Assembly: GCF_013410065.1 (NCBI RefSeq)
Contig: NZ_JACCCW010000002.1
Span: forward strand, 1,426,001-1,490,000
Direction of reading: 5' to 3'
DNA length: 64,000 nucleotides
Source: Granulicella arctica
GTDB lineage: Bacteria > Acidobacteriota > Terriglobia > Terriglobales > Acidobacteriaceae
Shown: piece after piece, positions 29,283-35,788 of the stretch
How positions within the stretch are numbered: position 1 is the first letter of the stretch
Layout: every line of letters begins with the position of its first letter
The notes under the pieces: generated by a model
The model's database searches: none
What the model was told of the DNA's origin: nothing
The model's input: only the letters and a program-made list of their open reading frames with translations
Translations under genes and position numbers: made by a program

Positions 29283-29589
29283 GCAAAGAGAAGATGGGGC
29301 ATTGAGCGTTATTGCCCATCGCTTCCCTGCTTGTCGACAAGTGTTTGCTATGCCTTACCGTACGATTTTGGACGTTTGATGAAATGACTCCAGGACACTC
29401 TCTGTGCGATCGGCCTACGGCCAACCCAATTTACTTCCGGCCTCTCAACCTGTAAGGGCGCGAAAAGAGGCGGTCCCAAACCCAGCCACGCTCATCCTCG
29501 CCGATGAAGTCGACCCCTTACAGATGAACAGCTTGGAACAGATGTGATCAGGCCTTCATGCATGACGGTGTCTGTCCACTCATAAGGAG

Positions 29590-29865
29590 AAGAGGCGACA
29601 ACACTGCTTCTGGTACGGGAGGCGATGCTAATGAGCCACGTACTGAACTTTGCCTCTCCTCGAAAGCTGGATAGGTTGCGAAATGCCTTGAGAAAGGTTT
29701 TCTGGGCTGCATCTTCAGCATCTGCCTCGTTGTGCAGGAAGACAAAGTCATGACGAAAACACTGCATTCGTATGGCTGGATCAGCTCGTGAAAAAGGCGC
29801 GTCTCATCTGTCAGTATGGAGGCAATCAGTTGCTGTTCGTCGCACGATTCGGTGTTTCCAGCCAT
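29590..29865 (-). pseudogene. Truncated, frameshifted ECF sigma factor
   Basis: The minus-strand start at 29865 gives [33 protein letters not shown]. The frame then shifts by one near 29765 and sigma region 2 continues in the other frame: [44 protein letters not shown]. This matches the usual ECF region 2 pattern (DAED..Q.TFLKA...FRGE.KFSTWL..IA). After about 29600 homology is lost and region 4 is absent. The start lies directly behind the DoxX stop (29868), so it was the last gene of that small operon. Bufferin operons of some bacteria are controlled by a local ECF sigma factor, which makes its decay here noteworthy. Confidence 0.65.
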
Positions 29866-29867
29866 CT

Positions 29868-30335
29868 CTATGTGGCCCGCTCCTTGAGGCGGCCCTTGAA
29901 TAAAGCGTCCAGCGAAAAGCGACCCGCTCCAAAGACCAGAATAGTCAATGCGGCCATTAGAAACGTGATTTCCGCCGCGGAAGTGAACTTGTCGGAGTCA
30001 GAGAAGACAGAAAGCAATGCTTCGTGATCGGCTGTCCAATAGGCAACGAGCATGTTGCCTGCAAGTATGAGACCTGCAAAGCGCGATGCAAGGCCGACGA
30101 TCAGCAGCAACCCGCCAAAAAACTCAACCCCGGCCACGAAGTGTGCGTTAAACGCCGGAAAGGGAATATTAATACTGTTAAAGAATGTTGTGAATTTGGG
30201 AATGTTCTGCATCTTGCCCCACCCGCTGACCGCAAATTGCCAGCCCCAGTAAAGCCGTATCGCCAGCAAAAATGGTGATTGCAACGCTGAAGTTGCTGCC
30301 GAAAACTGTGTGTACCTCTTTGCGAGCGTGTTCAT
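29868..30335 (-). CDS. DoxX-family membrane protein
   Basis: About 155 residues from the ATG at 30335 (AGAGGAAC just upstream; the frame is open to 30368). Four transmembrane helices and the DoxX pattern are present: LLAIRLYWGWQFAVSGWGKM, FVAGVEFFGGLLLIVGLASRFAGLILAGNMLVAYWTADHE and FLMAALTILVFGAGRFSLDALF. DoxX proteins are frequent companions of DUF692/DUF2063 peptide-modifying genes. The intact DUF692 cluster is 1.9 kb away on the other strand, so a functional link is likely. It follows a decayed redoxin gene and precedes a broken ECF sigma gene. Confidence 0.85.
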   Translation of the reverse strand: MNTLAKRYTQFSAATSALQSPFLLAIRLYWGWQFAVSGWGKMQNIPKFTTFFNSINIPFPAFNAHFVAGVEFFGGLLLIVGLASRFAGLILAGNMLVAYWTADHEALLSVFSDSDKFTSAAEITFLMAALTILVFGAGRFSLDALFKGRLKERAT

Positions 30336-30389
30336 TGTTCCTCTTTCATGGTTCTGTAAGGCGCTCACTGCGAGTATTAGAGAAGAAAG

Positions 30390-30669: not shown

Positions 30670-30698
30670 TCATGTGCAGCTTCACCGAGGAGCGTCTT

Positions 30699-31487
30699 AT
30701 GCGCAGATCGTCCTGCTGGGTTTCTATAGCGACTACTATGGCGCTGCTTCTCTCCGCTGCGGTCGTGACGGGACAGATCGCCAAACCGGCGAATCCTGCC
30801 GTCAGGCCGAAGATCGTGCTGGTCGAGTTATTTACCTCGGAAGGCTGTTCGAGCTGCCCTCCTGCTGATGCCTTGCTGCGACAGATAAATGGGACAAAGA
30901 CAGCTTCCGGGCAGTTGATCGTAGGCATCAGCGAGCACGTTACTTACTGGAATTCGTTGGGATGGTCCGACCCATTCTCGTCTTCCGTATACACCGCTCG
31001 CCAGGACGCTTACGGTGTGAGCCTCGGGCTTGACAGCATATACACACCGCAGATGGTCGTGAACGGCACAGAGCAATTCGTTGGCAGCAGCAATGGCGAT
31101 TTGGCGAAAGCTCTGCGCCGAGAGCAGGAAAAAGAATCGTCGGTAGACCTACGTATCGTTTCGACAAGCGTTGTGGGAAACATGCTTACAGTCAAGTTTT
31201 CCGTAACCAGCGATGCGTCTGTGCATGGTGCCGATATCATCGCCGTGCTGACCGATGATAACGACCAATCAAGTGTCTCTCGCGGAGAGAATTCGGGCCG
31301 AACGTTGGCTCATGTCTCGGTCGCTCGTTCCATCGTTCGGATAGCGGAAGTACAGCGCGAGGCCGACCAGACCGCGCAAATAGCACTTCCGGATCATTTT
31401 GGGGGCAAGGAAGGGCACCATCTTATCCTTTTCGTGCAGACTGCCAGGAGTGGCCGCGTGTTAGGAGCCGCTACACAGCCTCTATAG
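30699..31487 (+). CDS. Exported DUF1223 thioredoxin-like protein
   Basis: 262 residues from the ATG at 30699 (GAGGAG 6-7 nt upstream; the frame is open to 30672). A signal peptide (residues about 1-27) is followed by VLVELFTSEGCSSCPPADALLRQI, the DUF1223 hallmark with a CSSC redox-like motif, then HVTYWNSLGWSDPFSSSVYTARQDAYG and IYTPQMVVNGTEQFVGS, typical of the family. The C-terminal 110 residues form a beta domain. The biochemical role of DUF1223 is not settled; the fold and CxxC suggest periplasmic redox or metal handling. It lies between the decayed redoxin/DoxX operon and the bufferin-like cluster. Confidence 0.85.
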   Translation: MRRSSCWVSIATTMALLLSAAVVTGQIAKPANPAVRPKIVLVELFTSEGCSSCPPADALLRQINGTKTASGQLIVGISEHVTYWNSLGWSDPFSSSVYTARQDAYGVSLGLDSIYTPQMVVNGTEQFVGSSNGDLAKALRREQEKESSVDLRIVSTSVVGNMLTVKFSVTSDASVHGADIIAVLTDDNDQSSVSRGENSGRTLAHVSVARSIVRIAEVQREADQTAQIALPDHFGGKEGHHLILFVQTARSGRVLGAATQPL

Positions 31488-31884: not shown

Positions 31885-32157
31885 ATGACGAACAATACCA
31901 AGTCACTCGTTTTGGCCGCAGCAGTTGCGGGTCTTTTCGGCGGTACCGCGCTTCGCGTGAATGCGCAGCCTAACAACAACGCACCTGCTGCATCCGCAGG
32001 CGTTTTGATTGCGCAGGACGCCCCTGCCAAGCACGCTTGCAAAGGTAAGAACGATTGCAAGGGTCAGGGTGGCGGCAAGGATGCCGGCAAGAACAGCTGT
32101 AAGGGTAAGGGCAACTGTGCAACGGACGGCTCCAAGCCCGCGCCGAAGCTCTCGTAA
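31885..32157 (+). CDS. bufA2: BufA2-like Cys-rich exported peptide (bufferin-type metallophore precursor)
   Basis: 90 residues from the ATG at 31885 (GAAAGG upstream; the frame is open to 31741). A signal peptide ends near RVNAQ. The mature region holds exactly four Cys (52, 58, 72, 78) in two near-repeats, CKGKNDC and CKGKGNC, joined by a Gly/Lys linker, then a short Lys/Pro tail. This matches BufA2-type precursors, whose Cys are modified by the DUF692 MNIO enzyme; related bufferins bind copper in the periplasm. The modifying enzyme gene follows 93 bases later. The 397 bases upstream (31488-31884) form a long leader with a GTAACC at 31708 and no other gene. Confidence 0.78.
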   Translation: MTNNTKSLVLAAAVAGLFGGTALRVNAQPNNNAPAASAGVLIAQDAPAKHACKGKNDCKGQGGGKDAGKNSCKGKGNCATDGSKPAPKLS

Positions 32158-32250
32158 GATTGCCATCAGTACAGGGAGGTCTGAGATGTCTTCAGGCCTC
32201 CCTACCGCTGCGCGAACTCGAAACGAATTCACCACAGCAGGAGCCGTATC

Positions 32251-33135
32251 ATGCCAGCCAATCGCTTCAACGGATTTACGGATTACGGCGTAGGCATCGG
32301 TTTGCGCGTTCCACATTATGAGCACATCCTCTCCGAAAAACCCGTCGTAGATTGGTTTGAGATCATCTCCGAAAATTACATGGTCGATGGTGGCCGTGCG
32401 CTGAAGGTGCTGGACCAGATCCTTGAGCAGTATCGTGTCGTGCAGCACGGTGTTTCCATGTACTTCGGCTCCGCACAGGCACTGGATCGTGAACATCTTA
32501 AGCGACTGAAGGAACTGACCAGACGCACAAAAACACCCTGGCTCTCCGACCATCTTTGCTGGGGCAGCGTAGACGGATGCTACACCCATGATCTGCTTCC
32601 TTTGCCGTACACGTTTGAGGCCGCCCGTACCACTGCCACACGCATCCGCGAGGTGCAGGATTTCTTTGAAGTCCCCATCGCGGTAGAAAACGTCAGCAGT
32701 TATGCGGAGTTTCATGAGTCGCAGATGACCGAATGGGAGTTTCTCAACGAAGTCGTCCACGCGGCAGACTGCGGCATTCTGCTCGACGTCAACAATATCT
32801 ACGTCTCGTCGCAGAACCACGGCTTCAATCCTATGGATTACGTGAATGCTGTCCCCAGCGAGCGGGTCGCGCAGATCCACATCGCGGGACATTCAAAGTT
32901 TGAAAAGTACACGCTCGATACGCACGATCATCCCGTGCTTGATCCTGTGTGGGACATGTATGCTCGTGCAATTGAGCGTGTTGGTAATACTGCGACGCTC
33001 TTGGAATGGGATGACAGTATCCCATCGTTCGATGATGTTCACAACGAAGCACTCAAGGCGAACCATTATCTGAATGCTTCTTCGGAATTGCGCGCTTCGT
33101 TTCCAGAAAAACAGCAGGATGAGGTTCACGCATGA
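32251..33135 (+). CDS. bufB: DUF692 multinuclear non-haem iron oxidase (MNIO), BufB-like
   Basis: 294 residues, AGGAG upstream of the ATG. A TIM-barrel DUF692 protein with the family marks GIGLRVPHYEHIL, WFEIISENYM, HGVSMYFGS, WLSDHLCW, VENVSSY, LLDVNNIYVSSQNHG, AQIHIAGH, DTHDHPV and LEWDDSIP. Likely iron ligands are among His66, Glu146, Asp179, Asn182, His190, His210 and Glu252. MNIO enzymes modify Cys residues of ribosomal peptides (thiooxazole or related groups). The substrate should be the upstream CKGKxxC peptide. The last 4 bases overlap the start of the DUF2063 partner, so the two are translationally coupled. Confidence 0.93.
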   Translation: MPANRFNGFTDYGVGIGLRVPHYEHILSEKPVVDWFEIISENYMVDGGRALKVLDQILEQYRVVQHGVSMYFGSAQALDREHLKRLKELTRRTKTPWLSDHLCWGSVDGCYTHDLLPLPYTFEAARTTATRIREVQDFFEVPIAVENVSSYAEFHESQMTEWEFLNEVVHAADCGILLDVNNIYVSSQNHGFNPMDYVNAVPSERVAQIHIAGHSKFEKYTLDTHDHPVLDPVWDMYARAIERVGNTATLLEWDDSIPSFDDVHNEALKANHYLNASSELRASFPEKQQDEVHA

Positions 33136-34028
33136 ACCTGCTCGAGTTGCAACGCCGCATGTCCGAAGACGTTCGTCGGCCGCTTACCGCGAACTTCGAG
33201 ATGCAGCAGCAGACCGAAGACGGTCGTTGGGTCAACGAGATTGCAGAAGCGTATGTAAAACCGAACGACCGACTCACGTCCTTTGAGCGCCTCGAAATCT
33301 ATAACCGGCAATACTGGTTCCGTGTCATCACCGCCATCTCAGACGACTTTCCCGCACTCGCTGCTATCCTCGGCCCCAAACGCTTCGATGCACTTGTGCT
33401 CGCATACCTACGCGAGAATCCTTCAACCTCCTTCACGCTCAGGAACCTCGGCGCACAGCTTCCACTCTGGCTAGAGCATCATCCCGAGTTCTGCGGACGA
33501 CGCCACACGCTTGCGCTGGATATTGTGCGCCTGGAGTGGGCTTATGTAGAAAGCTTCGACCGTGCCACTGTTTCCCCGCTCACACCAGAAGACTTTGCAG
33601 GCCTCAACGGAGAGTCAAAGCTTTCGCTCCAGCCGCACCTTCAACTCCTCAACCTCAAGTATCCCGTCGACGAACTTGTGCTGACCGTGCACAAGGAAAC
33701 CCCCGAAGCCGATATCATGAGTAACGCCGTACTGGAGCGCAAGCAAACCATGCGCATCAAGCTGCCGCCCATGCGCCGCACGAACGTTTCACTCGCTGTC
33801 CATCGCTTCGATAACTCCATCTACTATCGACGCCTCGATCGCGAAGCTTACTTGCTTCTCTCAGCATTGCAGCATCATAAGGCACTTGCCGAAGCGATCG
33901 AAACCGCGTTCGCAGGCAGCAAGTTGGCGGTCGAAGAACAGGCGTCGAAAATCCAGCAGTACTTCGCGCATGCTGCGGAACTTGGCTGGTTCTGCCATCA
34001 ACCGCCGGGCACTGTTGGCGTCCAATGA
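33132..34028 (+). CDS. bufC: DUF2063 partner protein of the MNIO (BufC-like)
   Basis: 298 residues. The N-terminal 95 residues are the DUF2063 helical domain (LLELQRRMSEDVRRPL, LTSFERLEIYNRQYWFRVITAISDDFPALAAILG). The C-terminal part is the usual winged-helix/ferredoxin-like region that recognises the precursor. These proteins form a complex with DUF692 enzymes and deliver the leader or signal region of the peptide to the active site. The name DNA-binding domain given to DUF2063 in older annotations is probably misleading. It overlaps the MNIO gene and the following DUF255 gene by 4 bases each. Confidence 0.88.
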   Translation: MNLLELQRRMSEDVRRPLTANFEMQQQTEDGRWVNEIAEAYVKPNDRLTSFERLEIYNRQYWFRVITAISDDFPALAAILGPKRFDALVLAYLRENPSTSFTLRNLGAQLPLWLEHHPEFCGRRHTLALDIVRLEWAYVESFDRATVSPLTPEDFAGLNGESKLSLQPHLQLLNLKYPVDELVLTVHKETPEADIMSNAVLERKQTMRIKLPPMRRTNVSLAVHRFDNSIYYRRLDREAYLLLSALQHHKALAEAIETAFAGSKLAVEEQASKIQQYFAHAAELGWFCHQPPGTVGVQ

Positions 34029-35788
34029 AGCTCCGCTGGCTTCTCCCTCTCGTCTTCGTCTCGATCCCGGCTTGCCCGCAAACATCCGTCCCTCCCATCA
34101 TTTGGCACCCATGGTCGGACGCGGTCTTTGCACAAGCCGCACGGGAGCATAAGTTCGTTTTGCTTGATCTTGAGGCCGTGTGGTGCCACTGGTGCCACGT
34201 TATGGACCAGCAGACTTATAGCAATCCCAACGTCCGTCGGCTTATGAATAAGAGCTACATCGCGATCAAGGTCGATCAGGACTCGCGCCCGGACATCTCC
34301 AATCGTTATGAAGACTATGGCTGGCCAGCCACTGTCGTCTTCAATGCGAATCGCGGCGAAATCGTAAAGCGCCAGGGTTTTCTTCCTCCGATGCAGATGG
34401 CATCCATTCTGCAAGCTGTGATTGACGATCCATCACCCGGTCCATCCGTCGAGCCGGAAAAAGCAGTTATCTACGCCACAACTCCCTTCCTCGCTCCATC
34501 GCTGCTGGCCGAGGTTACAAATGAGTACGAAAAACAATACGATACCGCCGGCAAAGGCTGGGCCTTTGGCCATAAATATCTCGACGCCGACTCGGTTGAG
34601 TATGCAGTATTGCTCGCTTCGCATGGCGATAAGCTTCAGGAGCAACACGTGCGCGATACGCTTCAGGCGGCGCAAAAACTGCTGGACCCTGTCTGGGGCG
34701 GCGAGTATCAATATTCCACAGGCGGCAACTGGGATGAGCCGCACTTCGAGAAGCTTCTCTACATCCAGGCGCAAGGCATACGCACGTATGCGCAGGCCTA
34801 CGGCCAGTTTCACTCGCCTGACTATCTCGCTGCCGCAAAGAACATTCATCGTTACGTGCGCGGTTTTCTCACCAGCCCAGAGGGTGCTTTTTACGTTAGC
34901 CAGGACGCTGACCTTATCGATGGAAAACATAGCACCGACTACTTCCGTCTCAATGACGCCAGGCGGCGTGCTCTTGGCATACCACGTGTAGATAAACACC
35001 TCTACGCACGAGAGAACGGCTGGATGATTCGCGCCCTCTGCAAGCTTTATGCGGTTAGCAGCGATGCGTCTACCCTACAGGAAGCCGAACGTTCCGCCCT
35101 TTGGGTTGTTGATCATCGAAGTCTTCCTGGCGGCGGTTTCTCTCACAGCGACCATGATACAGCCGGCCCCTACCTCGGCGATTCGCTTGCCGTGGGGCAA
35201 GCGTTTCTTGCTCTCTATGAGATAACGGGAGATCGCGAGTGGCTCAAACGTGCCGAAGGCGCCCGCCGTTTTATCGCGGCCAACTTCGCGGCGCCTTCAG
35301 GCGCGGGATTCACGACGTCGAAAAACGCTACCGACGCTGCCTATGAGCCACACCCCGAGCGTGACGAAAACGCACAACTAGCCCGCTTCGGCAATCTGCT
35401 TTCCTACTACACAGGCGATAAAGGAGACCGCGAAACTGCAACCCGTGCCATGCGCTATCTTGCAACGCATGAAGTGGCAATCGCTTGGCTTTCCGCGCCA
35501 ATTCTTCTCGCAGAAACGGAGTATACCCGGCCTCCACTGCATATCACCATCGTTGGAGTCAGGAAGGACCCCTCAGCGAAGGCTCTCTTCCAGATAGCTT
35601 TGAGCAACGGACCGGCCTATGAGAGGTTGGAGTGGTGGGACCCAACAGAGGAACCGTTGCTTAATGATGACATCCAGTATCCCACGCTTCCTCACGCCGC
35701 CGCGTTTCTATGCACAGCGACGGCCTGTTCCTCACCCATGGTCGACCCGCAAATCCTCGAACTGCACATACGCAAGGCTGGCTCCTAG
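34025..35788 (+). CDS. Exported DUF255 thioredoxin-like / six-hairpin protein (YyaL-like)
   Basis: 587 residues. A signal peptide (MKLRWLLPLVFVSIPACPQ) precedes a thioredoxin-fold DUF255 domain (about 25-130) with VLLDLEAVWCHWCHVMDQQTY, carrying a CHWC active-site-like motif (Cys54, Cys57) flanked by His55 and His58. The remainder is an alpha/alpha barrel like YyaL/SPATA20 proteins (VWGGEYQYSTGGNWDEPHFEKLLYIQAQ, FYVSQDADLIDGKHSTDYF). Most YyaL proteins are cytosolic; this one is exported. Its start overlaps the DUF2063 stop (ATGA), so it belongs to the bufferin-like operon. A role in disulfide or copper handling of the peptide is an inference. Confidence 0.82.
   Translation: MKLRWLLPLVFVSIPACPQTSVPPIIWHPWSDAVFAQAAREHKFVLLDLEAVWCHWCHVMDQQTYSNPNVRRLMNKSYIAIKVDQDSRPDISNRYEDYGWPATVVFNANRGEIVKRQGFLPPMQMASILQAVIDDPSPGPSVEPEKAVIYATTPFLAPSLLAEVTNEYEKQYDTAGKGWAFGHKYLDADSVEYAVLLASHGDKLQEQHVRDTLQAAQKLLDPVWGGEYQYSTGGNWDEPHFEKLLYIQAQGIRTYAQAYGQFHSPDYLAAAKNIHRYVRGFLTSPEGAFYVSQDADLIDGKHSTDYFRLNDARRRALGIPRVDKHLYARENGWMIRALCKLYAVSSDASTLQEAERSALWVVDHRSLPGGGFSHSDHDTAGPYLGDSLAVGQAFLALYEITGDREWLKRAEGARRFIAANFAAPSGAGFTTSKNATDAAYEPHPERDENAQLARFGNLLSYYTGDKGDRETATRAMRYLATHEVAIAWLSAPILLAETEYTRPPLHITIVGVRKDPSAKALFQIALSNGPAYERLEWWDPTEEPLLNDDIQYPTLPHAAAFLCTATACSSPMVDPQILELHIRKAGS

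Follow-up and report, generated by a model that had tools for sequence, protein, structure and literature searches.

The closest described relatives of the locus reported here are the bufferin clusters, the core of which comprises genes for a precursor peptide, an MNIO (DUF692) enzyme, a DUF2063 protein and a DoxX protein, and the peptides of which, the bufferins, are placed in the periplasm (PMC12452194). We analyzed a window of 64,000 nt from Granulicella arctica (contig NZ_JACCCW010000002.1 of GCF_013410065.1, a genome of 4.3 Mb in three contigs), in which the locus studied, at positions 31885-35788, carries four genes on the (+) strand in the order precursor, MNIO, DUF2063 and DUF255. Judged by the DUF255 protein, the nearest named relatives also belong to Granulicella. 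The four-gene order had been put forward in an initial annotation and was borne out by open reading frame (ORF) calls and by Pfam and NCBIfam matches. The coupling of the last three genes by ATGA, claimed at the same time, was found in the sequence at both junctions (33132-33135 between MNIO and DUF2063, and 34025-34028 between DUF2063 and DUF255).

The DUF255 gene appears to be a new addition to the known bufferin-type operon. The main text of PMC12452194 contains none of the terms thioredoxin, DUF255, Acidobacteri or DsbH, the main texts of PMC13097082 and PMC12538549 contain neither thioredoxin nor DUF255, and a full-text search of the open-licence literature returned no paper on a link between DUF255 and MNIO. 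Across genomes, most bufferin-type systems lack the DUF255 protein, which in turn is rarely found without such a system and is therefore classed as an accessory. The fuller description of the locus as a bufferin-type, BufA2-derived copper-peptide operon in which the DUF255 accessory acts as a reductase has, taken as a whole, an even chance of being correct.

Linkage and co-occurrence of DUF255 and MNIO genes

When public genomes were scanned with a 16-sequence alignment of the DUF255 protein's relatives, 268 relatives were found, from which the best 80 loci of the subfamily were kept; the locus counts given below refer to these, and many of the records are metagenome-assembled genomes with short contigs. 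An MNIO gene was present in 26 of the 80 loci, at a gap of at most 4.5 kb in 24 and, in 23 of these, on the same strand, the exceptions being L130 (gap of 5.5 kb), L155 (8.1 kb) and L161 (opposite strand). By record title, the 26 linked loci come from Acidobacteriota, Verrucomicrobiota, Planctomycetota, Armatimonadota, Melainabacteria and Pseudomonadota, and the 23 close same-strand loci from all of these except Melainabacteria. Where at least 4 kb was available on both sides, an MNIO gene lay within 4.5 kb in 18 of 50 loci; the expectation by chance is roughly 0.3% per locus, if 1.5 such genes per 4.5-Mb genome are assumed. With antisense readings excluded, the leading recurrent neighbours within 6 kb were DUF2063 (25 loci), MNIO (24 loci) and DoxX (18 loci). 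As a control, MNIO or DUF2063 was found within 1.5 kb in 23/80 subfamily loci compared with 0/14 loci encoding long YyaL-type proteins, and in Terriglobia none of the non-subfamily DUF255 matches listed came, as judged by eye, closer than 100 kb to an MNIO match. Twenty MNIO loci had no DUF255 gene; these were chosen after five adjacent genomes had been set aside and are thus no independent control.

The arrangement of the linked genes varies and includes bufABC-DUF255, bufABC-doxX-DUF255, DUF255-bufABC-doxX and doxX-DUF255-buf. In 11 of the 80 loci, all of them MNIO-linked, no more than 150 codons separate the CHWC motif of the DUF255 protein from the end of doxX, and in eight the motif is equally close to the end of the DUF2063 gene. 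Linked rows (28 of 81) were scattered through the tree of the subfamily, which requires 15 or more changes between linked and unlinked states, L118, L147 and L161 being taken as linked and L155 as not. Adjacency confined to this strain, an outcome that would have refuted the initial annotation, was ruled out by adjacent relatives both in Terriglobia and in public genomes from several phyla. The neighbourhood of DUF692, DUF2063 and DUF255 genes that it described is thus found in several phyla, in differing gene orders.

The co-occurrence extends to genomes in which the genes are apart. For the 54 loci without a visible MNIO gene, the genomes of 50 were tested, and 48 gave a match to the curated bufferin maturase model MNIO_BufB at an E-value of 1e-3, with at least 240 bits in 46 and above the curated cut-off in 36. 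Among 299 Terriglobia genomes, a full-length subfamily DUF255 was detected in 16 (at least 677 bits, the next match scoring 153), and MNIO matches of at least 300 bits were counted by hand in 16/16 of these compared with 63/283 of the others. Conversely, 16 of the 79 MNIO-positive genomes encoded DUF255, and the two genes adjoined in five of the 16; in G186 adjacency could not be judged because the contig has only 3,895 bases. In the class of G342 (188 genomes), DUF255 was found in seven genomes at an E-value of 1e-60 (partial in G353 and G403, split over two contigs in G407 and with one stop in G406) and MNIO_BufB above the cut-off in 39, that is in 7/7 DUF255-positive genomes compared with 32/181 of the others; four of the seven were adjacent by coordinates. 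Fisher tests, which ignore shared ancestry, gave p-values of 1.7e-10 for Terriglobia and 1.0e-5 for the class of G342, or 2.5e-4 for the latter without two genomes known beforehand. Seven genomes are represented twice among the loci (L063/L100, L065/L102, L069/L106, L070/L117, L072/L115, L075/L123 and L076/L110), and the test sets overlap, L115 and L117 also being in the Terriglobia set and G342 and G315 in both the 50-genome and class sets. A dedicated partnership of the DUF255 protein with bufferin-type genes, claimed at first from the window only, thereby gains strong support from gene neighbourhoods and co-occurrence in several phyla.

The precursor, its maturation proteins and the DUF255 protein

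The precursor gene (31885-32157, +) encodes the 90-residue peptide with two CKGKxxC repeats recognized at the outset. Its four cysteines, the only ones present, lie within CKGKNDC and CKGKGNC, and its N-terminus has a Sec-type signal region as judged by eye, from which Sec export is predicted. A short cysteine-containing precursor directly 5' of the MNIO gene is a feature of Buf2 clusters, and precursor homologues occupy the same place in the relatives. Six conserved cysteines are reported for 90% of Buf2 precursors (PMC12452194). Six-cysteine precursors (CKGxNSCKGxGGC...NGCKGKNSCKGKGGC) were present in relatives from another family and in G091, a member of the window's own genus; cysteines 3 and 4 of this type are missing from the window precursor and its near relatives. 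Against the NCBIfam BufA2 model (NF050166) the window precursor scored 18.8 bits, under the cut-off of 60. BufA2 was the best match for all ten precursors of linked loci that were tested, three of which passed the cut-off. From its sequence, the window precursor is bufferin-type and BufA2-derived, and is not a formal BufA2 member. The precursor profile matched in 20 of the 26 MNIO-linked loci, and CKG- or ACKG-type precursors were seen in the gap of three more (L171, L176 and L155). The gap of L161 contained another cysteine type, and the contigs of L116 and L169 stop within the MNIO gene. In the Bradyrhizobium loci L171 (12103-12860) and L176 (12171-12882), the DUF255 and MNIO genes flank a tandem pair of BufA2-type precursors; the second precursor of L176 passes the BufA2 cut-off. 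In L155 (19095-19571, a Blastocatellia record), a precursor-like ORF with many CKGEKAS repeats lies 5' of the MNIO gene.

The MNIO protein (32251-33135, +; PF05114, 358.4 bits) passes the MNIO_BufB model NF050167 with 349.2 bits against a cut-off of 310 and is assigned to the bufferin maturase family (BufB). It is followed, as in Buf2 clusters, by a gene for a BufC-like DUF2063 partner (33132-34028, +; PF09836, 59.6 bits, cut-off 27.2), which scored 39.7 bits against the HvfC model, below its cut-off of 142. The gap between the precursor and MNIO genes contains a hairpin with a 13-bp stem (32173-32203, +), and strong hairpins of differing sequence were found in the same gap of seven relatives. 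This comparison used the complete gap of eight operons, including that of the window, and approximate stretches for six more; the L079 stretch was misplaced. The fold of the window's gap as a whole was not exceptional compared with shuffled sequences (z -1.32); the case for the hairpin is based on its recurrence in relatives. Perhaps it sets the ratio of precursor to enzyme. A promoter scan gave two sites compared with a mean of 2.8 in shuffled sequences, and thus none beyond chance.

The DUF255/Thioredox_DsbH protein (34025-35788, +; PF03190, 93.6 bits, cut-off 27) has 587 residues, a hydrophobic signal-like N-terminus and a CHWC motif at residues 54-57, and is probably exported. Its thioredoxin domain, which carries the CHWC motif, is joined to a barrel of the (alpha/alpha)6 type, and a CX4C motif lies at the C-terminus (AlphaFold2 model, pLDDT 84.1, pTM 0.87). 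The best Foldseek match was 7tkv (TM 0.75 by query), followed by sugar epimerase-type barrels, the barrel resembling both sugar epimerases and GH76 enzymes. In a FastTree phylogeny, which carries a long-branch warning, a starred branch set the subfamily (81 rows) apart from the 14 YyaL-type rows. The first cysteine of CHWC is kept in 80/81 rows, and its second cysteine, the rest of the motif, the following histidine and the proline of GWPA in 81/81, while the two CX4C cysteines are kept in 78/81 and 79/81; the cysteines of both motifs are also present in all 14 YyaL-type proteins. By a simple hydropathy rule applied to the longest ORF, a hydrophobic N-terminus was found in 75/81 subfamily members compared with 4/14 YyaL-type proteins. 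The initial statement that such proteins are normally cytosolic elsewhere therefore agrees better with the long YyaL-type proteins than with this subfamily. An identity as an ordinary cytosolic YyaL protein was ruled out by the separate clade, the N-terminus and the MNIO linkage. Against curated models, the two best matches of the DUF255 protein were the C-termini of TsoB/DsbD proteins and DsbH was weaker, all under cut-off; the DsbH equivalog NF043050 gave 22.2 bits with a cut-off of 190.

Possible functions of the DUF255 protein

Based on the chemistry of published relatives, MNIO and DUF2063 would convert precursor cysteines to thiooxazoles in the cytoplasm with retention of the thiol, and the Sec system would then export the modified peptide. 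In the oxidising periplasm, the thiooxazole thiols and any unmodified cysteines would be liable to form disulfides. Modified fontiphorin is alkylated twice by iodoacetamide and tended to aggregate, in its authors' view because its thiols may form disulfides (PMC13097082), and reduction with tris(2-carboxyethyl)phosphine pointed to a disulfide in a modified peptide (PMC12538549). The CHWC site of the DUF255 protein may re-reduce such disulfides with electrons probably supplied by a DsbD-like protein (a single DsbD_TM match in the host genome exceeds the Pfam cut-off, in a frame ending in a thioredoxin-like CLSC segment), and the reduced peptide would then be able to bind copper. This most likely role, that of a thiol-disulfide reductase in the periplasm which leaves the peptide's thiols available to copper after modification and export, has about an even chance of being correct. 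The initial suggestion that the protein might keep the cysteines of the peptide reduced or pass copper is likewise plausible. The linkage to and co-occurrence with MNIO genes, the conserved CHWC site and the hydrophobic N-terminus count in favour of the reductase proposal. It fits because thiooxazole peptides are thought to be disulfide-prone and a thioredoxin-like protein is predicted in the envelope. It is also plausibly favoured by the DsbD-type C-termini among the best curated matches, which lie below cut-off.

Several observations weigh against this proposal. Sequence alone cannot separate a reductase from an oxidase or isomerase, and the reductase scheme leaves the large barrel domain without a role. 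In an eight-genome Terriglobia clade the gene has conserved neighbours of an unrelated kind, and 12 loci, mostly Obscuribacterales/Melainabacteria by title, have another gene after DUF255, one that resembles DUF547. No MNIO_BufB match was found in the DUF255-containing genomes G313 and G319, and only weak ones in G301 (101 bits) and G339 (42 bits). The DUF255 gene is absent from 63 of the 79 bufferin-type genomes of Terriglobia and from 32 of the 39 in the class of G342, and is thus not essential to bufferins. In addition, no fusion of DUF255 to DoxX, or to MNIO, was seen in the Pfam column for the 120 homologues listed of 6,708, and the lack of a DoxX fusion counts on the same side.

A possible additional part for DoxX in copper binding is raised in PMC13097082. 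In the window, a DoxX membrane protein (29868-30368, -; PF07681, 74.3 bits) is encoded divergently from the operon; it scored 63.6 bits against the HvfX model (cut-off 80) and matched MauE weakly (24 bits, cut-off 27). It has no cysteine, nor have four of the 18 other DoxX proteins listed, and DoxX as a simple cysteine relay was ruled out on this ground. The position of DUF255 close 3' of doxX in the 11 MNIO-linked loci suggests that DUF255 and DoxX might form a dedicated envelope thiol-redox module servicing the metal-binding heterocycles of an exported ribosomally synthesized and post-translationally modified peptide (RiPP). The cysteine-free DoxX proteins, including that of the window, speak against such a module, which we put forward as a tentative idea with well under an even chance; if true, it would give the DoxX of bufferin clusters a function.

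Among the alternatives to a reductase, the DUF255 protein could be an oxidase or isomerase that makes the correct disulfide between unmodified cysteines of the exported peptide, as in the outer pair of Buf1, the first and last cysteines of which are disulfide-bonded (PMC12452194, Fig. 3 legend). The joint loss of cysteines 3 and 4 in the clade of the window, as often happens to disulfide partners, agrees with this, but the DsbD-type matches below cut-off and the DsbD-like donor in the genome do not. Furthermore, some linked precursors are repeats with at least 10 cysteines, which makes one fixed disulfide less likely, and we regard an oxidase or isomerase as unlikely. A copper-transfer partner, exchanging Cu(I) with the bufferin via the CHWC and CX4C thiols, is suggested by the two conserved cysteine pairs and the link to relatives of copper-binding peptides. 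However, both pairs are common to the 14 long YyaL-type proteins, whose loci show no MNIO or DUF2063 gene within 1.5 kb, and the probability of copper transfer is low. It is similarly improbable that the DUF255 protein tailors or binds something else, such as a glycan in the barrel, with a common stress response as its only tie to bufferins. This would account for the likeness of the barrel to sugar epimerases and GH76 enzymes and for the non-bufferin neighbourhoods, but not for the near-constant co-occurrence with MNIO_BufB, the ATGA overlap with DUF2063 or the close spacing to doxX or DUF2063 elsewhere. A chance or purely inherited adjacency without functional meaning, although most Terriglobia members are not adjacent, is very hard to reconcile with gene orders that differ in several phyla and with strong co-occurrence even without adjacency.

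The recurrence of the pair in distant bacterial groups suggests that the DUF255 protein tends the sulfur atoms of the peptide outside the cytoplasm. Its co-occurrence with bufferins across phyla offers a concrete gene for asking whether bufferins must stay reduced there and whether DoxX takes part.

Neighbouring genes and known systems

Upstream of the operon, a DUF1223 protein with a CSSC motif and a signal-like N-terminus is encoded at 30672-31487 (+; PF06764, 199.7 bits). Among the loci searched, DUF1223 was close to bufABC in a few near relatives only. DUF1223 genes were located by coordinates near the MNIO gene in G290, G215, G135 and G155, within 5 kb of it in G283 and G146, and near bufA in L097 and L098. 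Adjoining doxX, at about 29492-29865 (-), is a decayed extracytoplasmic function (ECF) sigma-factor gene, broken between frames and recognized by Sigma70_r2 on a 91-aa fragment; in many relatives an intact sigma gene of ~210 aa overlaps or adjoins doxX. Sigma genes are reported in Buf1 clusters and not in Buf2 clusters (PMC12452194). Elsewhere, a metallopeptidase-like gene, with the motif MVHEMVH read in L176, adjoins bufferin-type genes (L097 6589-7575, L101 13945-14922, L176 15479-16465 and others). It was found in 16/51 MNIO loci compared with 0/65 others, with some genomes counted twice and a profile built from seven of these loci. Three of these peptidase-like proteins were tested and passed no Pfam cut-off, and the window had no match to the profile.

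The DUF255 protein of the window shares with YyaL/SSP411-type proteins, of which 7tkv is a solved example, the CHWC thioredoxin domain, the barrel and the C-terminal CX4C, and differs in being shorter, in its separate clade and signal-like N-terminus, and in co-occurring with MNIO. DsbH and the C-terminal thioredoxin domain of DsbD are periplasmic disulfide reductases. The DUF255 protein resembles these in its thioredoxin-fold CxxC and weak model matches, but is far under the DsbH cut-off, has a fused barrel and is linked to a RiPP operon. MauD and MauE are a thioredoxin-like protein paired with a DoxX-type membrane protein; the likeness here is in the pairing of a thioredoxin-like gene with a DoxX-superfamily gene and in the weak MauE match of the window's DoxX, while the cysteine-free DoxX proteins of the window and of four of the 18 other loci listed are a difference. 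The closest counterparts are the family 2 bufferin clusters (BufA2-BufB-BufC, often with DoxX; PMC12452194), with which the window shares a cysteine-containing precursor, MNIO_BufB, DUF2063, DoxX and the CKG motifs. It departs from them in having four instead of six cysteines and a precursor score under the BufA2 cut-off, and adds the DUF255 gene, an upstream DUF1223 gene and the remains of a sigma gene.

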